Positions 27,380-45,048 of a stretch of 48,324 nucleotides of DNA are shown here, piece by piece. The position numbers and the translations under genes were made by a program. The stretch's first letter is position 1, and each line of letters opens with the position of its first letter. The notes under the pieces are model-generated. The model saw only the letters and a program-made list of their open reading frames with translations. It ran no database searches and had not been told where the DNA came from. The stretch comes from Nitrospira sp. (GTDB lineage Bacteria; Nitrospirota; Nitrospiria; Nitrospirales; Nitrospiraceae). Location of the stretch: positions 523,895 through 572,218 of the forward strand of contig SWDI01000005.1 in NCBI GenBank assembly GCA_005116955.1. The letters are read 5' to 3'.

Positions 27380-30300
27380 TCATCCCTCAAGCTCCGAAAG
27401 GCTAGCTTCTGCCTCGATCAACTCAGGATTGGAAGCTCGTTCGGTAATCTTCGAACAAACCGCTTGCAACGCACTCCTTGCGGCATCCGATCGGTTCAGT
27501 TTCTTTAAGAGTCTGGCCATACTCATCGAGGCTCGAAGTTCGAGCATGCTTGCATGCTGGTCCTGCGCGATCTTCAGGGCTTCGGCAAAACACTGCTCCG
27601 CCGCAGAAACGGATGGCTCGGATTGTTCCAGCAACAGTTCCCCTTTTAGCCGAAGCAGTTCCGCTTGCCAGCACCGTTCTCCCTGAGAGTGAACAAGTTT
27701 CTGCGCTTCTGAAAGTGCGCCCAGACCTTCATCAATACGTTTCTGCCGCAAATAGATTTCTGCGAGCAGAGCCAACGTAAACGTGTTGTTGAGACTCGCG
27801 CCGGCGGCTTGCGTAGCGGAGAGGCCCTTCGCTAACCTGCCGAGACCTTGCTCTTCCCCCTTTTCCGCCAGACCCCAGCCTTGGAAGGAAGTCGCCCACG
27901 CTAACGTCACTTCAAATGAGTATTTGGTGGAAAGGGCAATGGCTTCTTCAGCGAGGATCAGGGTTCTGTCCGCATCGCGGATGGTGGCATAAATCCAGGA
28001 GAGCGTCGCGAGGGCAAACGCCAGCGTGAAGGGATGTTCCAACTCTCTTGCCATGCCAATGGCCTCCTGCGACAGCGCTTCGACCTGATCGACCTCGCCC
28101 AATATCCATAGCGTTCTGGCGAGGATGATTCTCGCGGTGATGCCAGGATCCTGAGTATAAGGTAGAGCCTGCAAGCGGTGCCTATCAGGATCATACAGAG
28201 CCTTTGCGGCCAGCAAATGGGCTTTGGCTTCATCGAACCGCCCGAGGAAGGAATAGGTCGAGCCGACACTCTCGTGCGCGCGAATCAGCATATCCGGGTT
28301 GTGCTCACGCTTCGCCTGAGACAAGAGATGTTCAGCCAGGTCGCACGCTATTGGAAGAGGCCCCCTGACCAGATGGAAGACCCATAACCCCCAATGAGCG
28401 AGAAAGTGATGCTCAGAATCGCGGTCCTCCTGGGAAAGTTCTTTTGCCCTCAGATAATTTTGCTCGATCTCCTGGGAGGCGTATCCTTTTACCGTCATCA
28501 TGGGGGCTCCACGTGCGATGAGGAGTTCCAATTCCAATGCATCGTGCTCCGTACCTGCGGGCACATCATTCAGCAACGTCACTGCGCGATTGAAATGGTT
28601 CAGCGCTTCGACATTGGCAGACCGATCCGCGTCTCTTCGGGCTGCAAGACGCCAATACGTGATGGCCGGACAGGTCAAACCTGCCTGTTCAAAGTGGTAG
28701 GCCAGGAGTTCCGGTTCCAACTGCACGCGCTCAGCGAACTTCTCTTCCAGTGTTTGCGCAATGCGGGCATGGAGGAGTCGACGAGATTTCTTGGGAAGCG
28801 TGTTGTAGGCCGCTTCTTGAACAAGCATATGCTTAAAACGATAGCGCGACAGCGATCGTTCGCCCTCTTGCAGAATGAGCCCTGAAGCGACAAACCGATC
28901 CAGGGCACCGTTGAGCTGGCTGTCTGTTATCCCAACGGTGGCCCGCAGCAGCTCATAGGTAAATTCCCGTCCGATTGCGGCTCCGATCTGAACAATTTCC
29001 TTGATCGGCCCTAATCGGTCCACCCGTTCCATGAGCAACGCTTGCAGACTGTCCGGAATGGCCATGTCCTTTAACGGAGCCTTGAGGGTAAATGTGTCGG
29101 TTCCCTCAGCCAGCAATCCAGTCCCCAACAGACTTTCCGTCAACTCTTCGATATAAAGCGGGACACCGTCGGTCTTCGCCAGAATCGCCTGCTGCACTTC
29201 CGGTGGAAGCACCTTTCCGCCGGTCATCGTTGCAATCAGCTCTGCGCTCTGCCGGCGCGGAAGCCGACTCAACGTCAGAAACGTGACGTGGCTGTATTCC
29301 GCCCACACAGGCCTGAAGTCCGGCCGAAAGGTGATCAGCAACAACACGCGCATCTGCCTGATCCGGTCGATGATTCGGGTCATGAGGTCCAGCGTGGTTG
29401 GATCAAGCCAATGGGCATCCTCTACGATGAGCAATGCAGGGGAGCGATCCGCCAGCTTTTGCAGGTACTGCATGAGCGCTTCTAGAGTCATGTCCTTACG
29501 TTTGTCGGGTGACACGATCAGCGGTGGATGCTGAATATCTCCACTGATCGAGAGCAGATCCGCAAGCAAAACAACCGTGACGCGGTCGTCCAGCCCGCTG
29601 TTGACCGCCAGGATGTCGAGCTTCCGCAGTTGCGTAGGGGCACTGTCCTCACTGATCAGCCCCGCCACCTGACGTAGATACGTAATCACTGGATAGAGCG
29701 CCGTATTGGTATGGTAAGGTGAGCATTGAAATTGAATCGCCTGGTGACGCTCCTCGGCAAGCCGGTCACGCAGAAAGCGGACCAACCGCGACTTGCCGAT
29801 GCCGGCCTCACCACCGAGAAGAACGACCTGTCCTTCACCCTCTACTGCCTCGCGCCAGCGACCCAAGACAAGCGCCGTTTCGTGTTCTCTGCCTATGAAA
29901 TCGACTAGTCGGCCAGATCGATACGACTCGAACCGGCTGGCCGACGGTTTGGCACTTAGAACCTGCCAGACCTGGACTGGTGTCTCGAACCCCTTGAGAG
30001 AGACAGTTCCCCCATCAACACACTCGAACTCGCCCCCGACAAGACGCTTCGTCACCGGATCAACGATTAATTGATTCGGCGCAGCCAGTCCCTGGAGACG
30101 GGCTGCTAGATTCGGAGTTTCACCGAACACCGACCGTTCCTTGGCGGTGTCTTGTCCGATGAGTTCCCCTACGATGACGGATCCAGTCGCAATCCCAATT
30201 CGCACCGCAATTTCGAATTCCTGATGAAGAAGAGAATCACGAGGCAGGGCCTTCACTAGCTCCAGCACGGCCAGTCCAGCATGCACCGCACGCTCTGCAT

Positions 30301-30775
30301 CGTGCTCATGGGCATGGGGGTATCCAAAATACACTAATAGTCCGTCACCCATGTATTTTGCGATATAGCCGTTGAATCGGCTGATCGCTTCCCCACAGGT
30401 ATCGAGAAAACGTCGGACAGCCGCTTGGAGGTCTTCAGGGTCCAATCGGCGAGCCAGCGCCGTCGAGCCCACAAGGTCACAAAACATGACCGTCAATTGG
30501 CGACGTTCCGCTTGATCTCGGTCAGCAGGGAATGGCTTTGTTTCCTGACCGGTTGAAACAGGCAGAGCCTCCAAGCCATTGCCTTCATGGTTTTGTGAGA
30601 GTTGGCCGATGGCGCGCAAGAGTTTTTTTCGATGGCCCAATACAACGCCCAGCGATGTCAAGTCACCATCATTCAGTTCGGGCAAGACGTCCCATGTAAT
30701 GGCGTTCTGCTGAAACGCTTCTCGATAGCGCTCAAGGCCAAGACTCTCCAGCCATGCGGATACGCGATCATCCAT
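27380..30775 (-). CDS. SAM domain, class III adenylate/guanylate cyclase, AAA ATPase and TPR fusion protein
   Basis: The 1131-residue cytoplasmic protein carries an N-terminal SAM domain (about 1-62), a class III nucleotide cyclase domain (about 92-275) with both metal aspartates in MFCDLVGST and YMGDGLLVYFG and the NLAARL motif, an AAA/STAND-type ATPase (Walker A GGEAGIGKS near 321-329, Walker B LLIVEDAHWLD), and a C-terminal TPR array of about 500 residues. This is a signal-integrating cyclase; the substrate, ATP or GTP, is uncertain. The ATG at 30775 is preferred to a GTG nine bases upstream. It precedes the RNase Z-like gene. Confidence 0.88.
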   Translation of the reverse strand: MDDRVSAWLESLGLERYREAFQQNAITWDVLPELNDGDLTSLGVVLGHRKKLLRAIGQLSQNHEGNGLEALPVSTGQETKPFPADRDQAERRQLTVMFCDLVGSTALARRLDPEDLQAAVRRFLDTCGEAISRFNGYIAKYMGDGLLVYFGYPHAHEHDAERAVHAGLAVLELVKALPRDSLLHQEFEIAVRIGIATGSVIVGELIGQDTAKERSVFGETPNLAARLQGLAAPNQLIVDPVTKRLVGGEFECVDGGTVSLKGFETPVQVWQVLSAKPSASRFESYRSGRLVDFIGREHETALVLGRWREAVEGEGQVVLLGGEAGIGKSRLVRFLRDRLAEERHQAIQFQCSPYHTNTALYPVITYLRQVAGLISEDSAPTQLRKLDILAVNSGLDDRVTVVLLADLLSISGDIQHPPLIVSPDKRKDMTLEALMQYLQKLADRSPALLIVEDAHWLDPTTLDLMTRIIDRIRQMRVLLLITFRPDFRPVWAEYSHVTFLTLSRLPRRQSAELIATMTGGKVLPPEVQQAILAKTDGVPLYIEELTESLLGTGLLAEGTDTFTLKAPLKDMAIPDSLQALLMERVDRLGPIKEIVQIGAAIGREFTYELLRATVGITDSQLNGALDRFVASGLILQEGERSLSRYRFKHMLVQEAAYNTLPKKSRRLLHARIAQTLEEKFAERVQLEPELLAYHFEQAGLTCPAITYWRLAARRDADRSANVEALNHFNRAVTLLNDVPAGTEHDALELELLIARGAPMMTVKGYASQEIEQNYLRAKELSQEDRDSEHHFLAHWGLWVFHLVRGPLPIACDLAEHLLSQAKREHNPDMLIRAHESVGSTYSFLGRFDEAKAHLLAAKALYDPDRHRLQALPYTQDPGITARIILARTLWILGEVDQVEALSQEAIGMARELEHPFTLAFALATLSWIYATIRDADRTLILAEEAIALSTKYSFEVTLAWATSFQGWGLAEKGEEQGLGRLAKGLSATQAAGASLNNTFTLALLAEIYLRQKRIDEGLGALSEAQKLVHSQGERCWQAELLRLKGELLLEQSEPSVSAAEQCFAEALKIAQDQHASMLELRASMSMARLLKKLNRSDAARSALQAVCSKITERASNPELIEAEASLSELEG

Positions 30776-31254
30776 GATCAACACCGTCTCAGATAGGTAT
30801 TCAAACGCTGATCACCGAGGGGGAAAAGATGGGCGATGCCCCTCTTAGAGACCGCAATGGCTTCATTGATAGTGACCATATGACAAACGGCTCGACGAAG
30901 ATTCTCCTTCAACCTCTTGTGGAATAAAGAGAGTATCGGTTCATCCCCATCGGATGTCCCTGATCGCCTACCTACTCGAGCGAGTGATTCTGCATTTGAT
31001 CAAGCGCGAGGAAAACGGACCAGCATGACACGTCGCCTGGCACTATGCTGACGCAGATCGCTCACAATTGTTGATCGTTTTGAGTCTTGCCGGTCAGGAT
31101 TGCAGATGGAGTATGGCTTTCACGACAATCGCAAGTCAATTATTCATGACACGGACGGACGAATCTTAACCTGATCATCACTCTCTCCGGCAGAAGCCGT
31201 CTCGAAGACGATTCGTTGACGGCCAATCAACTCCGCTCGTATGATTTCTCCCCC
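30776..31254. other. Intergenic region without a recognisable gene
   Basis: These 479 bases separate the divergent cyclase and HEAT-repeat genes. A 24-codon frame at 30954-31028 is the longest of interest; it lacks a ribosome binding site and I see no homologue. The region is richer in A/T near 31060-31160 and likely holds both promoters, but no element is convincing. Confidence 0.4.
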
Positions 31255-31983: not shown

Positions 31984-32847
31984 TTACGCGACAGCTGTCC
32001 TAGCCTCAAACTCAGCCGGAGATCGATAGCCGAGGGTCGAGTGGCGCCGCTGCCGATTATAGAACACCTCGATATACTCGAAGATGTCCTGTGTCGCCTC
32101 GCTCCGCGTCGCATACTGCCGATGGTACACGAGCTCGCGCTTCAACGTCCCGAAGAAACTTTCCACGCAGGCGTTGTCCCAGCAATTGCCTGTGCGGCTA
32201 ATGCTGGCCGTGATGCCGTGCGTGGTGAGCAGCTGTTGGTACTGCCCGGCAGCATATTGACTCCCGCGATCGGAGTGATGCAGGAGTTCGGTGGGGGGGT
32301 GTCGCGTGACGAGCGCCATGCGAAGTGCCTGCTCGGTTAAATCCCCGGTCAAGCGCGGGCCCATCGCCCAGCCGATGACCGCACGTGAGTACAGGTCCAG
32401 CAGCACGGCCAGATACAGCCAGCCCTCCAGGGTCCAGACGTAGGTGATATCGCCAGCCCAGACCCGGTTGGGTTGCGGCACTGTGAACTGGCGTTGCAGC
32501 GTGTTCGCCGCCACGGGCAAGTGGTGATTCGATTGGGTGGTGGCCCGCCATTTCTTCACGGTCTTGGCCCGGAGGCCATCGTGGCGCATCAGCCGCGCCA
32601 CGCGATGCTCCCCAACCCGGTGCCCTTGTTTGCGGAGGGCCCGCCAGATGCTCGGACTGCCGTAGGGCTGGCGACTCTCCTGATGGAGCACTCGGATTGT
32701 GGCGAGCAGCGTATGATTGGCAGCAGCCCGCCGACTTTCTGGACGTCCTCGCCACGCGTAATACCCTGCGGGGGATACGGCCAACGCACGGCACATCAGT
32801 CGGATCGGATAGCGACGGTCGTGCTCCTGGATGACGCGGTATCTCAT
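31984..32847 (-). CDS. IS3-family transposase OrfB (DDE integrase core)
   Basis: This 287-residue protein is the catalytic half of an IS3-family transposase. An N-terminal HTH_21 region (PYGSPSIWRALRKQGHRV) is followed by the rve core: first catalytic D in WAGDITYVWT, second D in HHSDRGSQY, and E in NACVESFFGTLKRELVY, ending with YNRQRRHSTLGYRSPAEF. All three DDE residues are present. It overlaps orfA by four bases, and the T/A run in orfA could allow a -1 shift to make the fused OrfAB. Confidence 0.93.
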   Translation of the reverse strand: MRYRVIQEHDRRYPIRLMCRALAVSPAGYYAWRGRPESRRAAANHTLLATIRVLHQESRQPYGSPSIWRALRKQGHRVGEHRVARLMRHDGLRAKTVKKWRATTQSNHHLPVAANTLQRQFTVPQPNRVWAGDITYVWTLEGWLYLAVLLDLYSRAVIGWAMGPRLTGDLTEQALRMALVTRHPPTELLHHSDRGSQYAAGQYQQLLTTHGITASISRTGNCWDNACVESFFGTLKRELVYHRQYATRSEATQDIFEYIEVFYNRQRRHSTLGYRSPAEFEARTAVA

Positions 32848-33140
32848 TGGGACTCCCTCGCCAAGAACGCCGCTGCACGTTTTAAAAAATCCCGCTCCTG
32901 TTTCAATGTCGCGTTGTCTCGTCTCAGCCGCGCAAGCTCTTCCTGTTCCGCATGCATCGACGGGCGTGTGTGGCCCTGGCTCTCCGCCTGTTGCTGCTCG
33001 GCCCGCCAGCGGTAGAGCAGGTGGTCGGCAATGCCTAGCTCTCTGGCCACTTGCGCGACCGGTCGTGCTGAGTCTCGGACCAATCGAACTGCTTCCGCCT
33101 TAAACTCTTCTGTGTACTGCCGTCTGGTCTTGGTGCTCAT
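32844..33140 (-). CDS. IS3-family transposase OrfA
   Basis: The 98-residue protein opens MSTKTRRQYTEEFKAEAV and has a helix-turn-helix around VAQVARELGIADHLLYRWR, followed by a leucine-zipper-like helix (ELARLRRDNATLKQERDFLKRA). It binds the terminal repeats. The chosen ATG has GGAGG six bases upstream; an ATG at 33158 is possible. The run TTTTTTAAAA near its end (coding strand) is a plausible slippery site for making OrfAB. Confidence 0.92.
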   Translation of the reverse strand: MSTKTRRQYTEEFKAEAVRLVRDSARPVAQVARELGIADHLLYRWRAEQQQAESQGHTRPSMHAEQEELARLRRDNATLKQERDFLKRAAAFLARESQ

Positions 33141-33203
33141 ACCGTCCTCCAATTTCATCAAACTCCTCCGTATACAGGTGTCTGTGAAATCGGGGGAAGG
33201 TCG

Positions 33204-33720
33204 GAGGATTTCCAACGGCTATAATCTTGCATCTCGGGTTTGATCTTCTGATGAAACCGATCATGGTTTTAAACTTCTCCTTGAATTTTGTCTCTTTCAA
33301 CGTTCCATCAGTTTCAGACAGATAATTCCCATTTCGAATGTGCCTCGCGAATCCTTTGTCGTGCGATCTTTCATTGCCGTAGAAAGTTCTTAGACTGAGC
33401 AAGTAATGCCTCTCATCCGGAGCAAGAGCGTAATAGCGGCCGCCGTATATTTCTTCTGAGACCTCATGTGAGGATCCAAGCGGTTTGGACCGCCCTTTGC
33501 TGACCACGCAGGAGTGGAGTGCAGCAGCGAGCAGTATTTCGCCTGCCTTGCAGAATGGGTCCAGGATGACGGTATTCTTATCGAGGAGCGCTGACTCTGA
33601 TATGCAGGAGACAAGTTCCAGTGCTTTGCCGACCAGCATGATAGGCTGGTCTCGGCCTTTCGTACTACCAAGAATATCTACAACGTGTGAGTCGGGTGTG
33701 AGGATCTTGCAGGCTGACAT
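33204..33720 (-). pseudogene. N6-adenine DNA methyltransferase fragment, truncated by the IS3 element
   Basis: The surviving 172 codons have VILDPFCKAGEILLAAAL, the motif I (DPFxGxG-like) of a DNA methyltransferase, and end at IIAVGNPP, the start of the catalytic NPPY/F motif. The reading frame then runs on into the IS end and stops at 33100. Everything after NPP is lost and is not found beyond the IS, so a deletion accompanied or followed the insertion. It overlaps the preceding methylase gene by one base (TGATG). With the catalytic motif cut, activity is very unlikely. Confidence 0.75.
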
Positions 33721-34526
33721 CAGGCGGCTTCTTGTGTTCGTTGACTGAGGTGCTCGTCAATAAGAAGTTGCACGGCATCGCGAGCGAAGTTGAAATCTTT
33801 GAAGCCTCGTGTATTGCCACCAGCTATTGAGGCTTCCAAAAAGCGGGCTGTCTTTTCGTAAAGCAGTGGTACCGTATTGCGGGCTGTGGTGCGCTCATAG
33901 AATTCACACCAGTTCAAATCAAAGTCGATGGGTTTATGTCCATTCGCCTTGATCCATGAACCCCCAATATTTGTCTGCGATGCCTTCGCCTGAGCTGTAC
34001 TTTGATCGCTCAACGCAGAAAGAGTCTCGTTCTCGTGAATTTGCCAAATGAGCGTACAGAGAACGTGTATAATGTACTCGGTCCGTTCCGGTCGGTGGAT
34101 CTTGAAGTCAGTTGTCTGAAGCCTCCGTACGACCATATCGGCAATCCGTTTACGAGTCAGATGGACGTTTACAGGACATATGTCCACAGCCCATAGGGTG
34201 TGAATTGTGTTTGCCACTGCGTGTAGGACGGGCTGATCAATTCCCGCCTTCACGTATTTTGTGACGAGGGCATTAATCCGACGCTCCACGATTGCTACGG
34301 CGAAGTTGCCGTGACCACAGGCAGGCTCAAAGAAGACGATATTCTCGTCCGACCAGAGTTTCTCATCGAACAAAGCAAGCATTTCTTGGACATACTGCTC
34401 GGGGGTGAAGACCTCACCCATATCTTTGATTCGTTCCCGATTGCGGTGGTGTGCAACAGTGCTTAGAACGGAATGTTGATCGGCTGTTTTATCTCGGTCC
34501 GATGTTAGTGTTCGATCACGTCTCAC
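33720..34526 (-). CDS. N-6 DNA methylase-like protein (motif I half)
   Basis: This 268-residue protein has RIKDMGEVFTPEQYVQEML and FFEPACGHGNFAVAIVERRI, the FTP and motif I of gamma-type N6-adenine methylases, and WAVDICPVNVHLTRKRI, the motif II acidic strand. I see no NPPY motif. It ends with a start codon overlap onto a second methyltransferase-like gene. The two may once have formed one split enzyme or a two-methylase modification unit. The start is a GTG at 34526; an internal ATG at 34421 would cut away the conserved residues before GEVFTP. No restriction endonuclease is visible, so the system looks orphaned. Confidence 0.75.
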   Translation of the reverse strand: MRRDRTLTSDRDKTADQHSVLSTVAHHRNRERIKDMGEVFTPEQYVQEMLALFDEKLWSDENIVFFEPACGHGNFAVAIVERRINALVTKYVKAGIDQPVLHAVANTIHTLWAVDICPVNVHLTRKRIADMVVRRLQTTDFKIHRPERTEYIIHVLCTLIWQIHENETLSALSDQSTAQAKASQTNIGGSWIKANGHKPIDFDLNWCEFYERTTARNTVPLLYEKTARFLEASIAGGNTRGFKDFNFARDAVQLLIDEHLSQRTQEAA

Positions 34527-36631: not shown

Positions 36632-37678
36632 GTGACGCAACCAATCGACCCCTTCCTCACTAGGGATGTGCCTGGAATCGGTGGACAAATCCGCGCCGTG
36701 CCCGAAGACTTTCAGGTCGAGGAACGGCCGCTCTACCTTCCTTGCGGGGAAGGTGAACATCTGTACATCACGATCACTAAGCGAGGCCTCTCCACGCCGG
36801 ATCTTGTTCGCCGACTTTCCTCTACTTTGGGTGTGAGAGCTCAAGCCATCGGGGTCGCCGGCTTGAAGGATGCCCGAGCCGTCACCACTCAGATGGTGTC
36901 ACTGCAAGGAGTCACACCGGAACAGGTATCTGGCCTCAAGACCGATGACTCAATCTTGAGTCTTCAGATCCTCGGACGCCATCGTAATCGGTTACGAACC
37001 GGTCATCACTCTGGCAATCACTTCCGTTTAGTCGTCCGTAATATCACCGGTCACGCGGCTGAAGCCGTGCAGGCCGTTCTTCAACAGTTGAGCACACGCG
37101 GCGTGCCCAACTACTTTGGCCCTCAGCGTCAAGGAAAGCGGGGCGATAACTACGAGGTAGGCGCCGCACTCCTCCACGATGCGCGCCGGCGAGAAAAGAT
37201 GAACCGTTCCCAGCGCATCTGGTACCTCAACACCTATCAGTCGTTTTTGTTCAATCGCATCCTCGCCCGGCGCATCGATCAGATCGATCGCCTGTTCGTC
37301 GGTGATTGGGCGACAAAACTGGAGAATGGCGCCTGTTTTCAGGTTGAGAATGCTGAAAGCGAACAGCCGCGCGCAGATCGTTTTGAGATCAGTCCAACCG
37401 GCATCCTCTTCGGCTCACGCGTGTCCTGGGCGGGTGGCGAGCCTGGTGGAATCGAAGAAGCTGTCATTGCCGAAGCAGGCACAAGTAAAGAGAGTCTCGT
37501 CGCCGCCGCGAAAGCTTGTGGATTCCGTGGCGAACGCAGAGCGCTCCGCATCCCCCTCACTAAACTTGAATGGTCACTCAGCGGTGATGTTCTTACCCTA
37601 TCTTTCAGTCTCCCTCCCGGCGCCTACGCCACGAGCGTACTCCGAGAACTGATGAAAATATCCCCCACGAACGCGTAG
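36632..37678 (+). CDS. truD: tRNA pseudouridine(13) synthase TruD
   Basis: TruD isomerises U13 of some tRNAs, notably tRNA-Glu, to pseudouridine. The 348-residue protein has PEDFQVEERPLYLPCGEGEHLY, the active site GLKDARAVT with catalytic D80, GHHSGNHFRLVVRNI, and RGVPNYFGPQRQGKRGDNYEVG, plus the insert domain with LENGACFQVENAE. The GTG start has an AAGGA ribosome binding site and a promoter-like pair upstream. It is divergent from the metallophosphatase gene. Confidence 0.94.
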   Translation: MTQPIDPFLTRDVPGIGGQIRAVPEDFQVEERPLYLPCGEGEHLYITITKRGLSTPDLVRRLSSTLGVRAQAIGVAGLKDARAVTTQMVSLQGVTPEQVSGLKTDDSILSLQILGRHRNRLRTGHHSGNHFRLVVRNITGHAAEAVQAVLQQLSTRGVPNYFGPQRQGKRGDNYEVGAALLHDARRREKMNRSQRIWYLNTYQSFLFNRILARRIDQIDRLFVGDWATKLENGACFQVENAESEQPRADRFEISPTGILFGSRVSWAGGEPGGIEEAVIAEAGTSKESLVAAAKACGFRGERRALRIPLTKLEWSLSGDVLTLSFSLPPGAYATSVLRELMKISPTNA

Positions 37679-37745
37679 TTCCTCTCATTTTCTTTCTCCT
37701 GCCATAGTGGGTGGTACTATATGGTCACATCCATTGAGGACGGCT

Positions 37746-38990
37746 GTGAACCACTACCAAGAACGCGTATGCCTTCAAGGCCACATTATTGACTCCCTCG
37801 TGCTCGCTAAGGTGCTCGATCTCATCCTGATGATGGGAGGAACCTTCGACCTGGAGGATGTACACATCGGCAAGACCAGGGAGGAAGCATCTCATGCCCG
37901 TATTCGGATCCAAAGCGCCTCGAAAGCGCTCTTAGACGACATACTCAAAGCGATTCAACCACACGGCGCCTCGATCGAACGTGAGGCCGACTGTCGCACC
38001 GACACTGCGCCTGCCGACGGAGTGTTACCCGATGACTTCTATGCCACGACGCACCTCCCCACCCAGATCCGGCTCAACGGTCGATGGCTGGACGTCGACC
38101 GAATCGAGATGGATCTCGCGATCGCGGTCACCGAGGCGGGCTCCGTCGCCCAGGCCGTGCCGATGGGTGAAGTTCGTCGTGGGGATCAGATCGTGATCGG
38201 TCGAGAGGGGGTGCGTGTCATTCCCCTCCAGCGGCCACGCGAACGAGACGTCTTTGGATTCATGGAGTCTCAGGTCTCGGCTGAACGGCCCCATGGCCAT
38301 ATCATTGCCGACATCGCAACTCGGATGCGTCAAATGAGAGAGCAACACGGAGAGAGGCGGAGCGACTCACACGTCTTACTGGCCGGTGGACCAGCCATCA
38401 TTCATGCCGGTGGGCGAGAGGCGCTGACCTGGCTGATCGAACAGGGGTTTATTCATATCCTGTTTTGTGGGAATGCGCTGGCTGCGCATGACATGGAAGC
38501 TGATCTCTTCGGCACGTCACTCGGCTACGGACTCACAGCAGGGCGCGCAGTCCCACATGGTCACGAGCACCATTTGCGAACCATCAACCGAATTCGAGCC
38601 ATCGGTGGGATTGAGGCGGCGGTCACGTCGGGAATGATCAAGCAGGGAATCATGGCTGCCTGTGTCCGCCAAGGCGTCCCGGTGGTCATGTCCGGAACGA
38701 TTCGTGACGATGGGCCCTTGCCCGGAGTGATCACGGATTCCGTTCTGGCACAACGCGCGATGCGCACCTTGATCCCCGGCGTTGGGCTGGCTCTTCTTGT
38801 CGCCTCGACGCTCCACTCCGTGGCGACGGGCAATCTTCTTCCGGCAACCGTTCCCACAGTCTGTGTCGACGTGAACCCGTCGGTCCCGACCAAGCTGGCC
38901 GACCGCGGGAGCTTTCAGGCGGTCGGCCTCGTCATGGATGCGGCATCGTTTCTGTCGGAACTTGCCAGGCTGTTGGGGAAATCGACATGA
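37746..38990 (+). CDS. Archaeal-type ornithine cyclodeaminase (TIGR00300 / LOR-SDH-like)
   Basis: The 414-residue protein belongs to the TIGR00300 family: GHIIDSLVLAKVLDLILMMGG near the start, VHIGKTREEASHARI, and the NAD-domain FCGNALAAHDMEADLFGTSLGYGL. Archaeal members convert ornithine to proline and ammonia; the same domain forms the C-terminal half of cyanobacterial AgrE/ArgZ. I prefer the GTG at 37746, preceded by GAGGACG, over the first codon of the open frame at 37707. TACTAT at 37713-37718 is a possible -10 element. Its stop overlaps the next gene by four bases, and that gene matches the other half of AgrE. Confidence 0.8.
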   Translation: MNHYQERVCLQGHIIDSLVLAKVLDLILMMGGTFDLEDVHIGKTREEASHARIRIQSASKALLDDILKAIQPHGASIEREADCRTDTAPADGVLPDDFYATTHLPTQIRLNGRWLDVDRIEMDLAIAVTEAGSVAQAVPMGEVRRGDQIVIGREGVRVIPLQRPRERDVFGFMESQVSAERPHGHIIADIATRMRQMREQHGERRSDSHVLLAGGPAIIHAGGREALTWLIEQGFIHILFCGNALAAHDMEADLFGTSLGYGLTAGRAVPHGHEHHLRTINRIRAIGGIEAAVTSGMIKQGIMAACVRQGVPVVMSGTIRDDGPLPGVITDSVLAQRAMRTLIPGVGLALLVASTLHSVATGNLLPATVPTVCVDVNPSVPTKLADRGSFQAVGLVMDAASFLSELARLLGKST

Positions 38991-39787
38991 GCCGCCTCCT
39001 CGTCTGTCCCCCGGATTTTTTTAGGATTGCGTATGAGATCAATCCCTGGATGCGGCGTACCAATCGCGTCGATCACCGACGGGCGGTGCGACAGTGGCAT
39101 GAATTGATGCGCGTCCTTGGAAAAGACGTGGGCGTCGTGCTTGAACAAATGACTCCCATTCCTGGATTGCCTGACCTCGTATTTACGGCCAATGCCGGTA
39201 TCGTGGTTGGACGAACCGCCGTCGTGAGTCGCTTCCGGTACCCTGAGCGTCAACCTGAAGAGGCTCATTTTGAAGCGTGGTTCCGTGGACAGGGCTATGA
39301 CGTGGTCACAGTAGAACAAGAGCTGTTTTTTGAGGGAGCAGGCGATCTCCTGGGTTTTTCAGAATACTGGTTCGGTGGCTATCGACAACGATCGGATATC
39401 CGCGTCTTCCCGATCCTTAGTGAGCGTTTTCACCGAGAAATCATTCCCCTCGAACTTGTCGACAGCCGCTTCTATCATCTGGATACCTGCCTCTGTTCCT
39501 TGAGCGGCGGCGAGCTCCTCTATTTCCCCGCGGCATTCGATGTCTATGGCCAGGCAGCGATTGCCGAACGTGTTCCTGACAAGCTCCGTCTCCCCGTCCC
39601 AGAAGATGAAGCCTTGCGCTTCGCCTGCAATGCCGTCTGTGTCGGGAAACATGTCGTTCTCCCTACGGGATGTCCCACCACTCAAACCTGGCTCCGTATG
39701 CGAGGATATCAAACCCACCAGGTTCAGCTCGATGAGTTCATGAAATCCGGTGGGTCGGCCAAGTGTCTCACACTCGCATTGGACTGA
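38987..39787 (+). CDS. Arginine dihydrolase-like guanidine-modifying enzyme
   Basis: This 266-residue protein has the amidinotransferase/deiminase fold with LLVCPPDFFRIAYEINPWM, LPDLVFTANAGIV (N69), FFEGAGDLLGF, FYHLDTCLCSLSGG and the nucleophile C260 in GGSAKCLTLALD. These match the N-terminal domain of cyanobacterial arginine dihydrolase (ArgZ/AgrE). That domain turns arginine into ornithine, CO2 and two ammonia using an active-site Cys and an Asn at the place of N69; the residue match is my alignment. It is coupled by ATGA overlap to an ornithine cyclodeaminase. Dimethylarginase or arginine deiminase activity is the alternative. Confidence 0.82.
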   Translation: MSRLLVCPPDFFRIAYEINPWMRRTNRVDHRRAVRQWHELMRVLGKDVGVVLEQMTPIPGLPDLVFTANAGIVVGRTAVVSRFRYPERQPEEAHFEAWFRGQGYDVVTVEQELFFEGAGDLLGFSEYWFGGYRQRSDIRVFPILSERFHREIIPLELVDSRFYHLDTCLCSLSGGELLYFPAAFDVYGQAAIAERVPDKLRLPVPEDEALRFACNAVCVGKHVVLPTGCPTTQTWLRMRGYQTHQVQLDEFMKSGGSAKCLTLALD

Positions 39788-41310: not shown

Positions 41311-42333
41311 ATGTCGACCACGATGAACAAGATCGGTGTTATTGGAGCCGGAGCCTGGGGCACAGCCTTAGCGAAACATCTGGCCGAGAAGGGTCTGGAG
41401 GTTCGTCTCTGGGCTTATGAACATCTCGTCGTCAACGCCATCAACACCTCTCATGAAAATTCTGTCTTCCTGAAAGACGTCCCTCTTCCATCAAACTTAA
41501 CGGCCACTTCCTCACTGATTGAAACCGTACATGGCTGTGATGGGGTTCTGTTTGCCGTTCCTTCGCACCGAACCCGATCCGTGTTGCATCAGTTGGCACC
41601 CTACATCTCAGAGCCCATCCCGTTCGTGTGCGCAACCAAAGGCATAGAAGAAACCACGGCTAAATTGATGACCCAGGTCATGGAGGACGAGTTGTCGCCG
41701 GCCATGCACCGCTTCCTCATGGTGCTGTCTGGACCCAGTTTCGCCTCCGAATTCAGCATTGGGAAGCCCACGGCCCTGTGCCTGGCTGGCTCCGATGACC
41801 AGCTCGTGCGGCAGTTTCAAAATGCGTTGATAACGCCTGCATTTCGTGTGTACGCCGATACTGATGTCATCGGCGTCCAACTCGGCGGAGCCCTAAAAAA
41901 TGTCATGGCACTCGCTGCCGGTGTGATCGATGGTCTGAACCTCGGACTCAATGCCCGCGCGGCGCTCATGACTCGAGGCCTGGCTGAAATCATCAGGCTC
42001 GGCGTGGCCATGGGAGCCGATCCACGCACGTTTTATGGACTGTCCGGGGTCGGCGATCTGGTCCTGACCTGTACAGGCACACTCAGCCGAAACCATTCGG
42101 TAGGGGTTCGCCTCGGCCAGGGAGAAAAATTGGAGACAATTTTGGCAGGCATGCAGGCTGTCGCTGAAGGCGTTCGGACGGCACGTGCCGCATTAACATT
42201 GGCCCGGCGCCATCAGGTCGATATGCCGATCATACAGGAAATTCATTCCGTCCTGTATGACGATAAATCTTGCAGGAAGGCCGTGACTGATCTAATGGAG
42301 CGGGATGCAAAATCAGAGAAGGGGTGGACATGA
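41311..42333 (+). CDS. gpsA: NAD(P)H-dependent glycerol-3-phosphate dehydrogenase
   Basis: GpsA reduces dihydroxyacetone phosphate to sn-glycerol-3-phosphate for phospholipid synthesis. The 340-residue protein has the nucleotide-binding IGVIGAGAWGTALAKHL, the LFAVPSH strand, VLSGPSFASEF, the catalytic lysine K196 in GGALKNVMALAAG, and GLSGVGDLVLTCTGTLSRN. Length is standard. It follows a near-perfect promoter and overlaps larB by four bases (ATGA), so lipid precursor and cofactor genes share a transcript, probably by chance of operon organisation. Confidence 0.95.
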   Translation: MSTTMNKIGVIGAGAWGTALAKHLAEKGLEVRLWAYEHLVVNAINTSHENSVFLKDVPLPSNLTATSSLIETVHGCDGVLFAVPSHRTRSVLHQLAPYISEPIPFVCATKGIEETTAKLMTQVMEDELSPAMHRFLMVLSGPSFASEFSIGKPTALCLAGSDDQLVRQFQNALITPAFRVYADTDVIGVQLGGALKNVMALAAGVIDGLNLGLNARAALMTRGLAEIIRLGVAMGADPRTFYGLSGVGDLVLTCTGTLSRNHSVGVRLGQGEKLETILAGMQAVAEGVRTARAALTLARRHQVDMPIIQEIHSVLYDDKSCRKAVTDLMERDAKSEKGWT

Positions 42334-43085
42334 ATCCGGAAGGACTCGAACGGCTGTTGCAGCAAGTCCGTCAAGGCGATGCCACGGTAGAACAGGCACT
42401 TCAGCGCCTGCGGTCACTGCCTTTTGAGGATCTGGGCTTTGCCTCAGTCGATCATCATCGGTCATTACGACAAGGGTTCCCCGAGGTCGTCTTGTGTGAA
42501 GGGAAAACCACCGCGCAGATCATCGCCATCGCTCGGGCGCTCATTAAGAAACAAGGCCCGTTTCTTGCCACTCGTGCCAACCCATCGGTTGGGCGAGCCA
42601 TTCGCCGCCTGGATCGGCGAGCACAGTACTATCCCGATGCACGCCTGGTGGCGATTCGCGCTTCCAAGCAGAAACAACATGGGCATGTACTCATAGTGAC
42701 CGCGGGAACGGCGGACGTGCCCGTGGCGGAAGAAGCTCGTGTGACAGCAGAAGTGATGGGCAGCCACGTTGAGCGACTGTACGATGTCGGGGTTGCGGGT
42801 ATCCATCGACTGCTCGGCAAGAGAGATCGGCTGTTCGATGCGAAGGTCGTAATCGTCGCGGCTGGCATGGACGGTGTCCTGCCGAGCGTGGTGGGAGGGT
42901 TGGTCCACTGCCCAGTCATTGCCGTGCCAACCAGCCGAGGCTATGGTGCGAGCTTCGGAGGAGTCGCTGCGCTGTTGACGATGCTCAATTCCTGCGCGGC
43001 GGGTGTAGGCGTGATGAATATCGACAACGGATTCGGCGCGGCCTGCCTCGCACATCGGATCAATATGTTGGGAGTAGCGAAATAG
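42330..43085 (+). CDS. larB: Nickel-pincer cofactor biosynthesis protein LarB
   Basis: LarB carboxylates and hydrolyses nicotinic acid adenine dinucleotide, the first step of the nickel-pincer nucleotide cofactor of lactate racemase and relatives. The 251-residue protein has an N-terminal helical part, VVLCEGKTTAQIIAIARAL, VTAGTADVPVAEEA, and the AIR-carboxylase-like AGMDGVLPSVVGGLVHCPVIAVPTSRGYG. The ATG at 42330 overlaps the gpsA stop; a GTG six bases upstream is less likely given the GAAGGGG ribosome site. LarC is 745 bases downstream, with one convergent gene between. LarE and LarA are not in the window. Confidence 0.9.
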   Translation: MNPEGLERLLQQVRQGDATVEQALQRLRSLPFEDLGFASVDHHRSLRQGFPEVVLCEGKTTAQIIAIARALIKKQGPFLATRANPSVGRAIRRLDRRAQYYPDARLVAIRASKQKQHGHVLIVTAGTADVPVAEEARVTAEVMGSHVERLYDVGVAGIHRLLGKRDRLFDAKVVIVAAGMDGVLPSVVGGLVHCPVIAVPTSRGYGASFGGVAALLTMLNSCAAGVGVMNIDNGFGAACLAHRINMLGVAK

Positions 43086-43108
43086 GCATGGGAGAAACGA
43101 ATGAGCCT

Positions 43109-43654
43109 CTATTTCACTTCCAGTAGGCCTCGCTTCGGCCAGGCGACCATCACGGTGCGTAACCCTTTTTCTCCATTGGCCAACAACTTTGTCCGCACTT
43201 CATACGAATAGATGCCCACCCCGGCGAGTTGCTTTCGGTGATCCTGGCCATCCCACGCAAGTTCGACGGACACCTTCGATCGTCCTGTCTCCCCATCCAC
43301 GGCTGGAGGGACTTGGATGGGCTGTCGATACGTGAGAAACCGAAGCGAGCTCTTCGACGGAGAACTAATGAGCGAGGTCACCTCCAAAATCGTGGATCCA
43401 TCCACTTCTTTCGGAAGCTGGACTGTAACGGAAAACTGGAGAGGCCCGTTGCCCAGAGCATATGGTGTCGGGGCAATGTTAAGGCCGACAATTTTGAGCT
43501 GAGGCTCAGGCCTGGGAACGCGGGGCGGCTTCACTTTCGAGAGGCTCTCTGCTGGGAATACGGCCATCAGAGAAGCACACAGGGTGAGCAACCCGAGCAG
43601 AAGCCTTGTACGATAGAGATGACGTGACGTCTTCAACGAAAACCCTGACCCCAT
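43109..43654 (-). CDS. Unknown secreted protein
   Basis: The 181-residue product has a signal peptide with the hydrophobic stretch LLLGLLTLCASLMAVF, followed by a Pro-rich segment (KPPRVPRPEPQ). The rest is predicted beta-rich, FSVTVQLPKEVDGSTILEVTSLI and KVSVELAWDGQD, resembling an immunoglobulin-like or FlgD-like sandwich; I recognise no family. The ATG at 43654 is chosen because AGGAAAG precedes it and the signal peptide follows. It lies between larB and larC, on the opposite strand. Confidence 0.7.
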   Translation of the reverse strand: MGSGFSLKTSRHLYRTRLLLGLLTLCASLMAVFPAESLSKVKPPRVPRPEPQLKIVGLNIAPTPYALGNGPLQFSVTVQLPKEVDGSTILEVTSLISSPSKSSLRFLTYRQPIQVPPAVDGETGRSKVSVELAWDGQDHRKQLAGVGIYSYEVRTKLLANGEKGLRTVMVAWPKRGLLEVK

Positions 43655-43830
43655 ACTTTCCTGAACGAGCGCAGCGCGTCCACCACGATGCCACTTGACC
43701 GCATTCCTAGGGGGATACCATAGCACCCCTGGGCTGTCAACGAAGCGTCGAGAATGAACCAGCGATTGCCGTTCGTCCACGCCTTCGGTAAGATGTCCGG
43801 TCATTTTGCGCATCGCATGCGAGGAACTGA

Positions 43831-45048
43831 ATGGGCCGTCATTTGCATTTCGATTGTTTCTCCGGGGTCAGTGGAGATATGGTCCTGGGCGCATTAGTGA
43901 GCGCAGGGTTACCATGGATTGACTTGGTCAAGGGCCTCAAAGGACTCAAGCTTACCGGCTACACATTGCGGAAGCGCGAGGTACATCGTGGCGCACTCCC
44001 GGCGATAAAGGTCGACGTGATCATTCAACAAGGGTTTCAACGGCCGCTGACCCTCACTCGCATTCGAAAGATCCTTGCCGACAGCACGTTGCCAGGCCCG
44101 GTCAAGGAACGTAGCCGGTTGGTCTTTGATCGACTGGCTGAAGCTGAAGGAGTGGCGCATGGTGTCGATCAAAAAGATGTTCACTTTCATGAAGTCGGGG
44201 TGGTCGATTCGTTTATCGATGTTGTCGGTGGCGTGCTGGGGTGCTATCTCTTGAACGCCACCCGAGTCACCGCGTCTCCGATCAATGTTGGGGCCGGGTC
44301 GATTCAAACCTCACACGGACTCTTACCGGTTCCAGGACCCGCGGTGGCGGCGCTGGCAAGGGGAGTTCCGATCTACGCCGACGGTCCGCGCTGTGAGCTT
44401 GCCACCCCCACCGGGGTTGCGCTGCTTCTGACATTGGCGTCTGAATTCGGCCCTCTGCCGACGATGCGAAGTATGGCCCTGGGCTACGGGGCCGGCGACC
44501 ACAATCCAGACGGGTGGCCGAATGTCTTGCGCCTGTTTGTGGAGGAAGAGCCCACGTCGGCGGCCAATCAGACCGAGCGGATGATACAGATTGAGACGAA
44601 TCTTGACGACCTCAGTCCACAAACCTACGAATACATCATGGAACAGCTCTTTCAGGTCGGTGCTGTTGATGTCGTACTAGTTCCCGTCATCATGAAGAAA
44701 AGCCGGCCAGGAATCCTGCTGAGCTGCCTAGCCACTGAAGACCGAACGGATGCCGTGGTCGAGGTCCTCTTCCAGGAAACGACCACGCTCGGAGTGCGGC
44801 TTCATGAGGTACGCCGACGGGTCCTCACCAGGCGATTCGTCCCCGTCACGACCCAAGGCGGAGTCGTTCGTATGAAAGTTGCCGAGGTCGGCGCGGGATG
44901 GGAAAAAGCAGCCCCCGAATACGAGGACTGTAAAGCCATCGCGCAACGAACCGGCCGCCCTCTCAAGACGGTTATGGAGGAAGCGCTGATGGTCTATCGA
45001 CGAGGACACAAAAAGACGAGAATCACAACGGCGCGAGGCCGAGCATGA
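43831..45048 (+). CDS. larC: Nickel-insertion protein LarC (DUF111)
   Basis: LarC inserts nickel into the pincer cofactor using CTP. The 405-residue protein begins HLHFDCFSGVSGDMVLGALVSAGLP. It has the His/Asp-rich DVHFHEVGVVDSFIDVVGG, CELATPTGVALL and the LETNLDDLSPQTYEYIMEQLF, with GAVDVVLVPVIMKKSRPGILLSCL, of the C-terminal half. In Lactobacillus LarC is split by a programmed frameshift; here it is a single frame. The gene overlaps the next, a cation exchanger, by four bases. Confidence 0.92.
   Translation: MGRHLHFDCFSGVSGDMVLGALVSAGLPWIDLVKGLKGLKLTGYTLRKREVHRGALPAIKVDVIIQQGFQRPLTLTRIRKILADSTLPGPVKERSRLVFDRLAEAEGVAHGVDQKDVHFHEVGVVDSFIDVVGGVLGCYLLNATRVTASPINVGAGSIQTSHGLLPVPGPAVAALARGVPIYADGPRCELATPTGVALLLTLASEFGPLPTMRSMALGYGAGDHNPDGWPNVLRLFVEEEPTSAANQTERMIQIETNLDDLSPQTYEYIMEQLFQVGAVDVVLVPVIMKKSRPGILLSCLATEDRTDAVVEVLFQETTTLGVRLHEVRRRVLTRRFVPVTTQGGVVRMKVAEVGAGWEKAAPEYEDCKAIAQRTGRPLKTVMEEALMVYRRGHKKTRITTARGRA

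Follow-up and report, generated by a model that had tools for sequence, protein, structure and literature searches.

The window analysed here is a stretch of 48,324 nucleotides of a Nitrospira contig, in which two plus-strand genes, designated OCD (ornithine cyclodeaminase) and ADH (arginine dihydrolase-like), share the four bases ATGA between the stop codon of the former and the start codon of the latter (Table 1). The two open reading frames on which an earlier sequence-only reading drew are real, with profile scores of 469.8 bits (TIGR00300) for OCD and 274.9 bits (NF052232) for ADH, and its description of separate genes in reverse order relative to cyanobacteria with a four-base overlap is accurate. 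This overlap makes translational coupling of OCD and ADH possible. The longest OCD frame begins at GTG 37707 (37707-38990), but GTG 37746 is the better start because its codon is ATG or GTG in the homologs at loci L006, L010 and L014 and in the L013 remnant, GAGG lies just 5' of it, and residues 1-15 of the longer form have pLDDT values below 50 in the AlphaFold model. truD is the upstream neighbour of OCD in an order conserved across loci. larB and larC are located 3-5 kb downstream of the pair; minus-strand genes lie between, and no single operon holds all four genes. Rfam elements, riboswitches included, are absent at gathering score from the whole window. Elsewhere on the minus strand, transposase-like ORFs occupy 31984-33215, with an integrase core and HTH_21 in 31984-32847 and a short ORF (32844-33215) that resembles the first half of that transposase ORF; the adjacent ORF 33720-34526 has no Pfam match, and a 1134-aa protein with SAM, adenylate/guanylate cyclase, AAA and TPR domains is encoded on the minus strand at 27380-30784.

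Table 1. Genes and sequence features of the OCD-ADH region (positions in the window)
Feature	Position	Strand	Basis
truD, tRNA pseudouridine(13) synthase	36632..37678	+	TIGR00094, 189.7 bits (cut-off 172.2)
OCD, ornithine cyclodeaminase (predicted)	37746..38990	+	414 aa from GTG 37746; TIGR00300, Pfam and fold
ATGA overlap, OCD stop/ADH start	38987..38990	+	Sequence
ADH, arginine dihydrolase-like	38987..39787	+	ATG 38987; 266 aa; NF052232 (below cut-off), ArgZ alignment
gpsA, glycerol-3-phosphate dehydrogenase	41311..42333	+	NCBIfam match; overlaps larB
larB, NPN synthesis (carboxylase/hydrolase)	42324..43085	+	NF033503, 289.1 bits (cut-off 175)
larC, NPN synthesis (nickel insertion)	43831..45048	+	TIGR00299, 180.6 (cut-off 90); NF052512, 146.7 (cut-off 50)

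AgrE of Anabaena (Alr4995) and ArgZ of Synechocystis (Sll1336) are bifunctional arginine dihydrolase/ornithine cyclodeaminases in one polypeptide, with the dihydrolase first. The Nitrospira pair resembles them over the full length of both domains (ADH has 44% identity to both, OCD 39% to AgrE) and has the key Asn and Cys and the fold of the OCD part. Unlike the fused ArgZ/AgrE proteins (NF052231), it consists of two ORFs with OCD first, and its ADH falls under the NCBI equivalog cut-off. OCD exceeds the TIGR00300 cut-off (410.8 bits) in a profile search and carries, in order, the Pfam regions PF04455, PF21571 and PF21570 (107.5, 104.6 and 312 bits). Its AlphaFold model matches the C-terminal part of AgrE (6lrf_A; Z 40.9, rmsd 5.7, 393 residues), and AgrE and ArgZ, the structures of which were reportedly described by Lee and Rhee (2020) and Zhuang (2020), are the closest solved structures for OCD and ADH alike. 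The model also matches PDB 3c2q, an M. maripaludis LOR/SDH protein that we take to be MMP_1218, with Z 35.6 across 235 residues, and the sequences of OCD and 3c2q share 45% identity across 319 aligned residues. This archaeal protein is a stand-alone OCD like that of Nitrospira, although MMP_1218 is described without a paired dihydrolase gene. After these matches, the closest fold in the search is deoxyhypusine synthase, which is NAD-dependent. Six His and one Lys are invariant in 76 aligned OCD rows. Homology gives good support for reading OCD as the C-terminal part of AgrE/ArgZ in stand-alone form.

The corresponding reading of ADH as a stand-alone N-terminal part of AgrE/ArgZ is likewise well supported by alignment. 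ADH matches ArgZ (6jv0/6juy) with E values of 1e-70 to 1e-69, and its identity to ArgZ and AgrE extends over the full length. N69 and C260, which had been put forward earlier as fitting a dihydrolase, align with ArgZ N71 and C264, exactly the positions substituted in the variant structures 6juz and 6jv1 of the PDB. The position of the ArgZ Asn had been set beforehand as the alignment check, with any other residue there speaking against a dihydrolase, and ADH has Asn (N69) there. N69, E116, H164 and C260 are invariant across 102 ADH-type rows, cyanobacterial ones included (100 from the fetched loci and the window, two from PDB text, with a few genes fetched twice); E116 and H164 are presumably the Glu/His triad partners of the nucleophile C260 (Cys 264 in ArgZ). 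This invariance is partly selection because the rows were gathered largely by similarity to this ADH, and the six cyanobacterial loci (L102-L107), AgrE and ArgZ are its more independent support.

Family placement of ADH is less direct. Its NF052232 match (E 5.8e-82) misses the cut-off of 450 bits. It also misses every cut-off of the dimethylargininase (DDAH) models NF045658, NF045659 and NF045660 (42/450, 239.7/300 and 75.3/340 bits), and that of arginine deiminase arcA (TIGR01078; 12.7 bits against 489.1). Calibration of NF052232 gave 531 bits for a cyanobacterial domain, 219-346 for eight other ADH-type proteins and 38 for a DDAH-type paralog, so that the split ADH proteins are a sister lineage excluded by the curated model; ADH is not filed under NF052232. 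ADH could instead be a dimethylarginase or an arginine deiminase that makes citrulline, with OCD taking ornithine from elsewhere. The score of 239.7 bits to the Mycobacterium-type dimethylargininase model, close behind that for arginine dihydrolase and with neither over its cut-off, is what this alternative can draw on. We consider it very unlikely given that Asn69 stands where DDAH has Asp (the Pseudomonas aeruginosa DDAH reads PDSVFVED at the site), that neither arcA nor either of the other two DDAH models comes near its cut-off, and that the pattern is inverted in a DDAH-type paralog from a related genome (L090), with 193 bits to NF045660 and 38 to NF052232. The lasting adjacency of ADH to OCD also argues against it.

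The best explanation of the whole, and in our view a highly probable one, is that the two genes encode a split arginine-to-proline route with the activities predicted from homology. ADH would strip the guanidino group from arginine through a covalent Cys260 intermediate, and Asn69 in place of the deiminase Asp would allow hydrolysis to continue to ornithine, two ammonia and CO2. OCD would then oxidise, cyclise and re-reduce ornithine to proline with loss of the third ammonia. The two proteins would be made together by coupling at ATGA and may associate.

Conservation of the pair was evaluated in 80 loci that were fetched by an ADH query. In 61 of them OCD immediately precedes ADH on the same strand, the four-base overlap occurs in 39, and the complete order TruD-OCD-ADH-GpsA-LarB-LarC in 26; the remaining 19 have no adjacent full OCD, among them L052 and L082, where the contig end is too near to tell. 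Conserved pairing in 61/80 fetched loci rules out chance adjacency of OCD and ADH. A survey of 195 Nitrospirota genomes, each at least 90% complete, found OCD over the cut-off in 65, always in open frames of 413-540 aa and always in a genome with a strong ADH match. A second survey covered 146 genomes of the phylum to which the genome of L072 (G213, Gastranaerophilales) belongs, which we infer to be Cyanobacteriota; OCD exceeded the cut-off in 55 of these, all in fused frames of 679-748 aa. Records labelled Verrucomicrobia, Armatimonadetes, Omnitrophota, Deltaproteobacteria, Gemmatimonadetes and Planctomycetota also hold the split pair. The split is thus the standard form in Nitrospirota and occurs in other phyla, while fusion is the cyanobacterial form because frame lengths separate the two surveyed phyla. 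Separation of the genes had been singled out earlier as a notable point; it is ordinary in Nitrospirota (65/65), and it is the fused form that sets cyanobacteria apart. A frameshifted copy of a fused gene, as an artefact, is ruled out by the same split in all 65 OCD-bearing Nitrospirota genomes. Overall, the pair is genuine and represents the AgrE/ArgZ system in a conserved variant with two genes. Fused cyanobacterial rows group together in the OCD tree and 3c2q joins their side, which may be a long-branch artefact, so that no conclusion on the ancestral form is drawn. One MAG contig (L007:1-1224) carries an in-frame OCD-ADH fusion in the order opposite to the cyanobacterial one; it arises from a small deletion in which about 11 residues at the ADH start are gone, and is possibly a curiosity or an assembly error.

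The genome that contains the window (3.65 Mb, 99.84% complete) has an amoA match of 333.8 bits, which bears out the earlier conjecture of a nitrifying host. With this amoA, and with Nitrospira as the nearest named relatives of the genome, the host is a comammox Nitrospira. For the case of a nitrifying host, it had been proposed that the pair supplies nitrification with ammonia from within the cell. Each arginine broken down by AgrE gives three ammonium, one CO2 and proline (PMC8262935), and together with amoA in the host this would fit such a role. The pair also occurs, however, in N. moscoviensis and N. defluvii (G210 and G211; loci L015 and L036), in the genomes of which no amoA match was found. 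No intact OCD is left in several relatives that have amoA: two (G002/L017 and G003/L025) retain only short OCD remnants between truD and ADH, and a third (G082) has neither OCD nor ADH. In a fourth, the Nitrospira CG24C (G212), OCD lies over two frames (L037:8562-9879), by frameshift or sequencing error. Arginine synthesis is, moreover, expensive for autotrophs. Feeding of ammonia oxidation by the pair is therefore not evident, and we regard it as unlikely. Separate OCD deletion scars between truD and an intact ADH are seen at L013:9700-14461, L017:9826-10000 and L025:9852-10000.

Proline supply is another conceivable role. An ornithine cyclodeaminase has been proposed for proline synthesis in methanogens (excerpts of PMC10809761), and excerpts of PMC5764234 have nothing on proline. 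Unlike the methanogens in which MMP_1218 is proposed for this function in those excerpts, the Nitrospira host has proB, as do all 12 genomes tested, the window's own included. Proline synthesis in the host is therefore independent of OCD, and rescue of proline auxotrophy is ruled out for it by proB, the only one of proA, proB and proC that the search covered. With proB present and the pair found both with and without amoA, turnover of arginine and ornithine is the most likely function of the route.

The sequence-only reading, sound on the enzymes, overlap, residues and host but not on the split as a notable point or on the ammonia role, overlooked the nearby LarB and LarC, which synthesize the nickel-pincer nucleotide (NPN). 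Like the lactate racemase system LarABCE, the host has LarB, LarC and LarE, the last encoded elsewhere in its genome (319 bits). It differs from LarABCE in that LarA (Lar_N, PF09861) has no Pfam match in the 99.84% complete genome, nor is one reported for the OCD protein, and in that the supposed client, OCD, has a deoxyhypusine synthase-like fold. LarA was absent among the 50 matches listed per OCD fold search, which excludes nothing on fold resemblance. NCBIfam names TIGR00300 'nickel-pincer nucleotide-dependent', although no paper linking NPN with ornithine cyclodeaminase was found in the CC-licensed PMC literature; for ornithine cyclodeaminase in Nitrospira, the single paper listed there concerns red algae. 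LarB occurs in 65/65 Nitrospirota genomes with OCD vs 100/130 without it (Fisher p 2.7e-6, kinship ignored), where the latter count takes in one genome with a broken OCD (G173) and one with an OCD remnant (G184), and one genome (G196) was counted as LarB-positive from a best E-value of 8.9e-71 with no LarB position listed. The corresponding Cyanobacteriota counts are 54/55 vs 34/91 (Fisher p 2.5e-15, kinship ignored), the single exception (G287) having OCD and LarB not over the cut-off. OCD and LarB starts are less than 7 kb apart in 49 of 53 OCD-bearing genomes of the window's family (median 4.0 kb), and such closeness was not found in the 12 other OCD-bearing Nitrospirota genomes (nine of f2, three of other class); no LarE match is listed next to OCD at any fetched locus. 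According to excerpts of PMC11796402, larBCE occurs without larA in about 15% of genomes and non-LarA clients are expected, and excerpts of PMC8305020 raise the possibility of an NPN enzyme in Haloferax volcanii, given its larBCE. The H. volcanii genome, a control in our profile search, holds TIGR00300.

We consider it fairly probable that OCD works with NPN made by LarB, LarE and LarC. The more specific reading, to which we lean only slightly, is that OCD is a non-LarA NPN client, a nickel-hydride amino-acid cyclodeaminase with a deoxyhypusine synthase-like fold that is encoded near larB-larC in Nitrospira; H220, H248, H273, H276, H357 and K383 (414-aa numbering) would then be candidate nickel ligands and thioamide anchor. 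OCD may instead hold tightly bound NAD+ as in the AgrE crystal, with LarB and LarC serving another NPN enzyme. The title of PDB 6lrg, which describes AgrE in complex with ornithine and NAD+, and the likeness of the OCD fold to deoxyhypusine synthase, an NAD enzyme, favour this possibility, as do relatives in which LarB and LarC outlast OCD. Two Nitrospiraceae genomes of 1.7-1.8 Mb (G137 and G141, 98-99% complete; L111:7146-12718 and L112:7403-12568) have TruD followed by GpsA-LarB-LarC and no OCD, ADH or LarA match, G082 keeps GpsA-LarB-LarC with no OCD and no LarA match, and LarB and LarC are intact at L017 and L025 despite OCD loss (of these relatives, the LarA search covered G137, G141 and G082). 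Retention of LarB/LarC after OCD loss means that neighbourhood alone proves little about the cofactor, and because it occurs without OCD or LarA in several relatives, another NPN user is likely in them. Against bound NAD+ stand the NCBIfam label of the family, the near-constant company of LarB with OCD in two phyla and the invariant His and Lys set in OCD, and we consider that alternative possible but rather doubtful. Joint loss in one genome (G184/L013), where an OCD remnant with a stop accompanies a LarC fragment and LarB is not over the cut-off, points to NPN use by OCD. Excerpts of a comammox guanidinase paper (PMC11410670) report finding no dedicated nickel-loading protein among comammox genomes; the larB-larC region of the window (42324-45048) encodes LarC, a nickel-inserting NPN enzyme.

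Nitrite oxidisers, comammox bacteria and members of other phyla have a more widespread two-gene module, of which the cyanobacterial fusion represents one arrangement. The Nitrospira pair offers natural split proteins for testing substrate channelling. The NPN link is the part of the OCD-ADH finding that is worth following. The tie between OCD and NPN by gene presence in two phyla makes a testable case of NPN users in genomes with larBCE and no larA, as discussed in excerpts of PMC11796402. If OCD is indeed a nickel-hydride enzyme, the NAD+ in the AgrE crystal would be an analogue in the cofactor site, and Nitrospiraceae that have neither OCD nor LarA would have a second NPN client.
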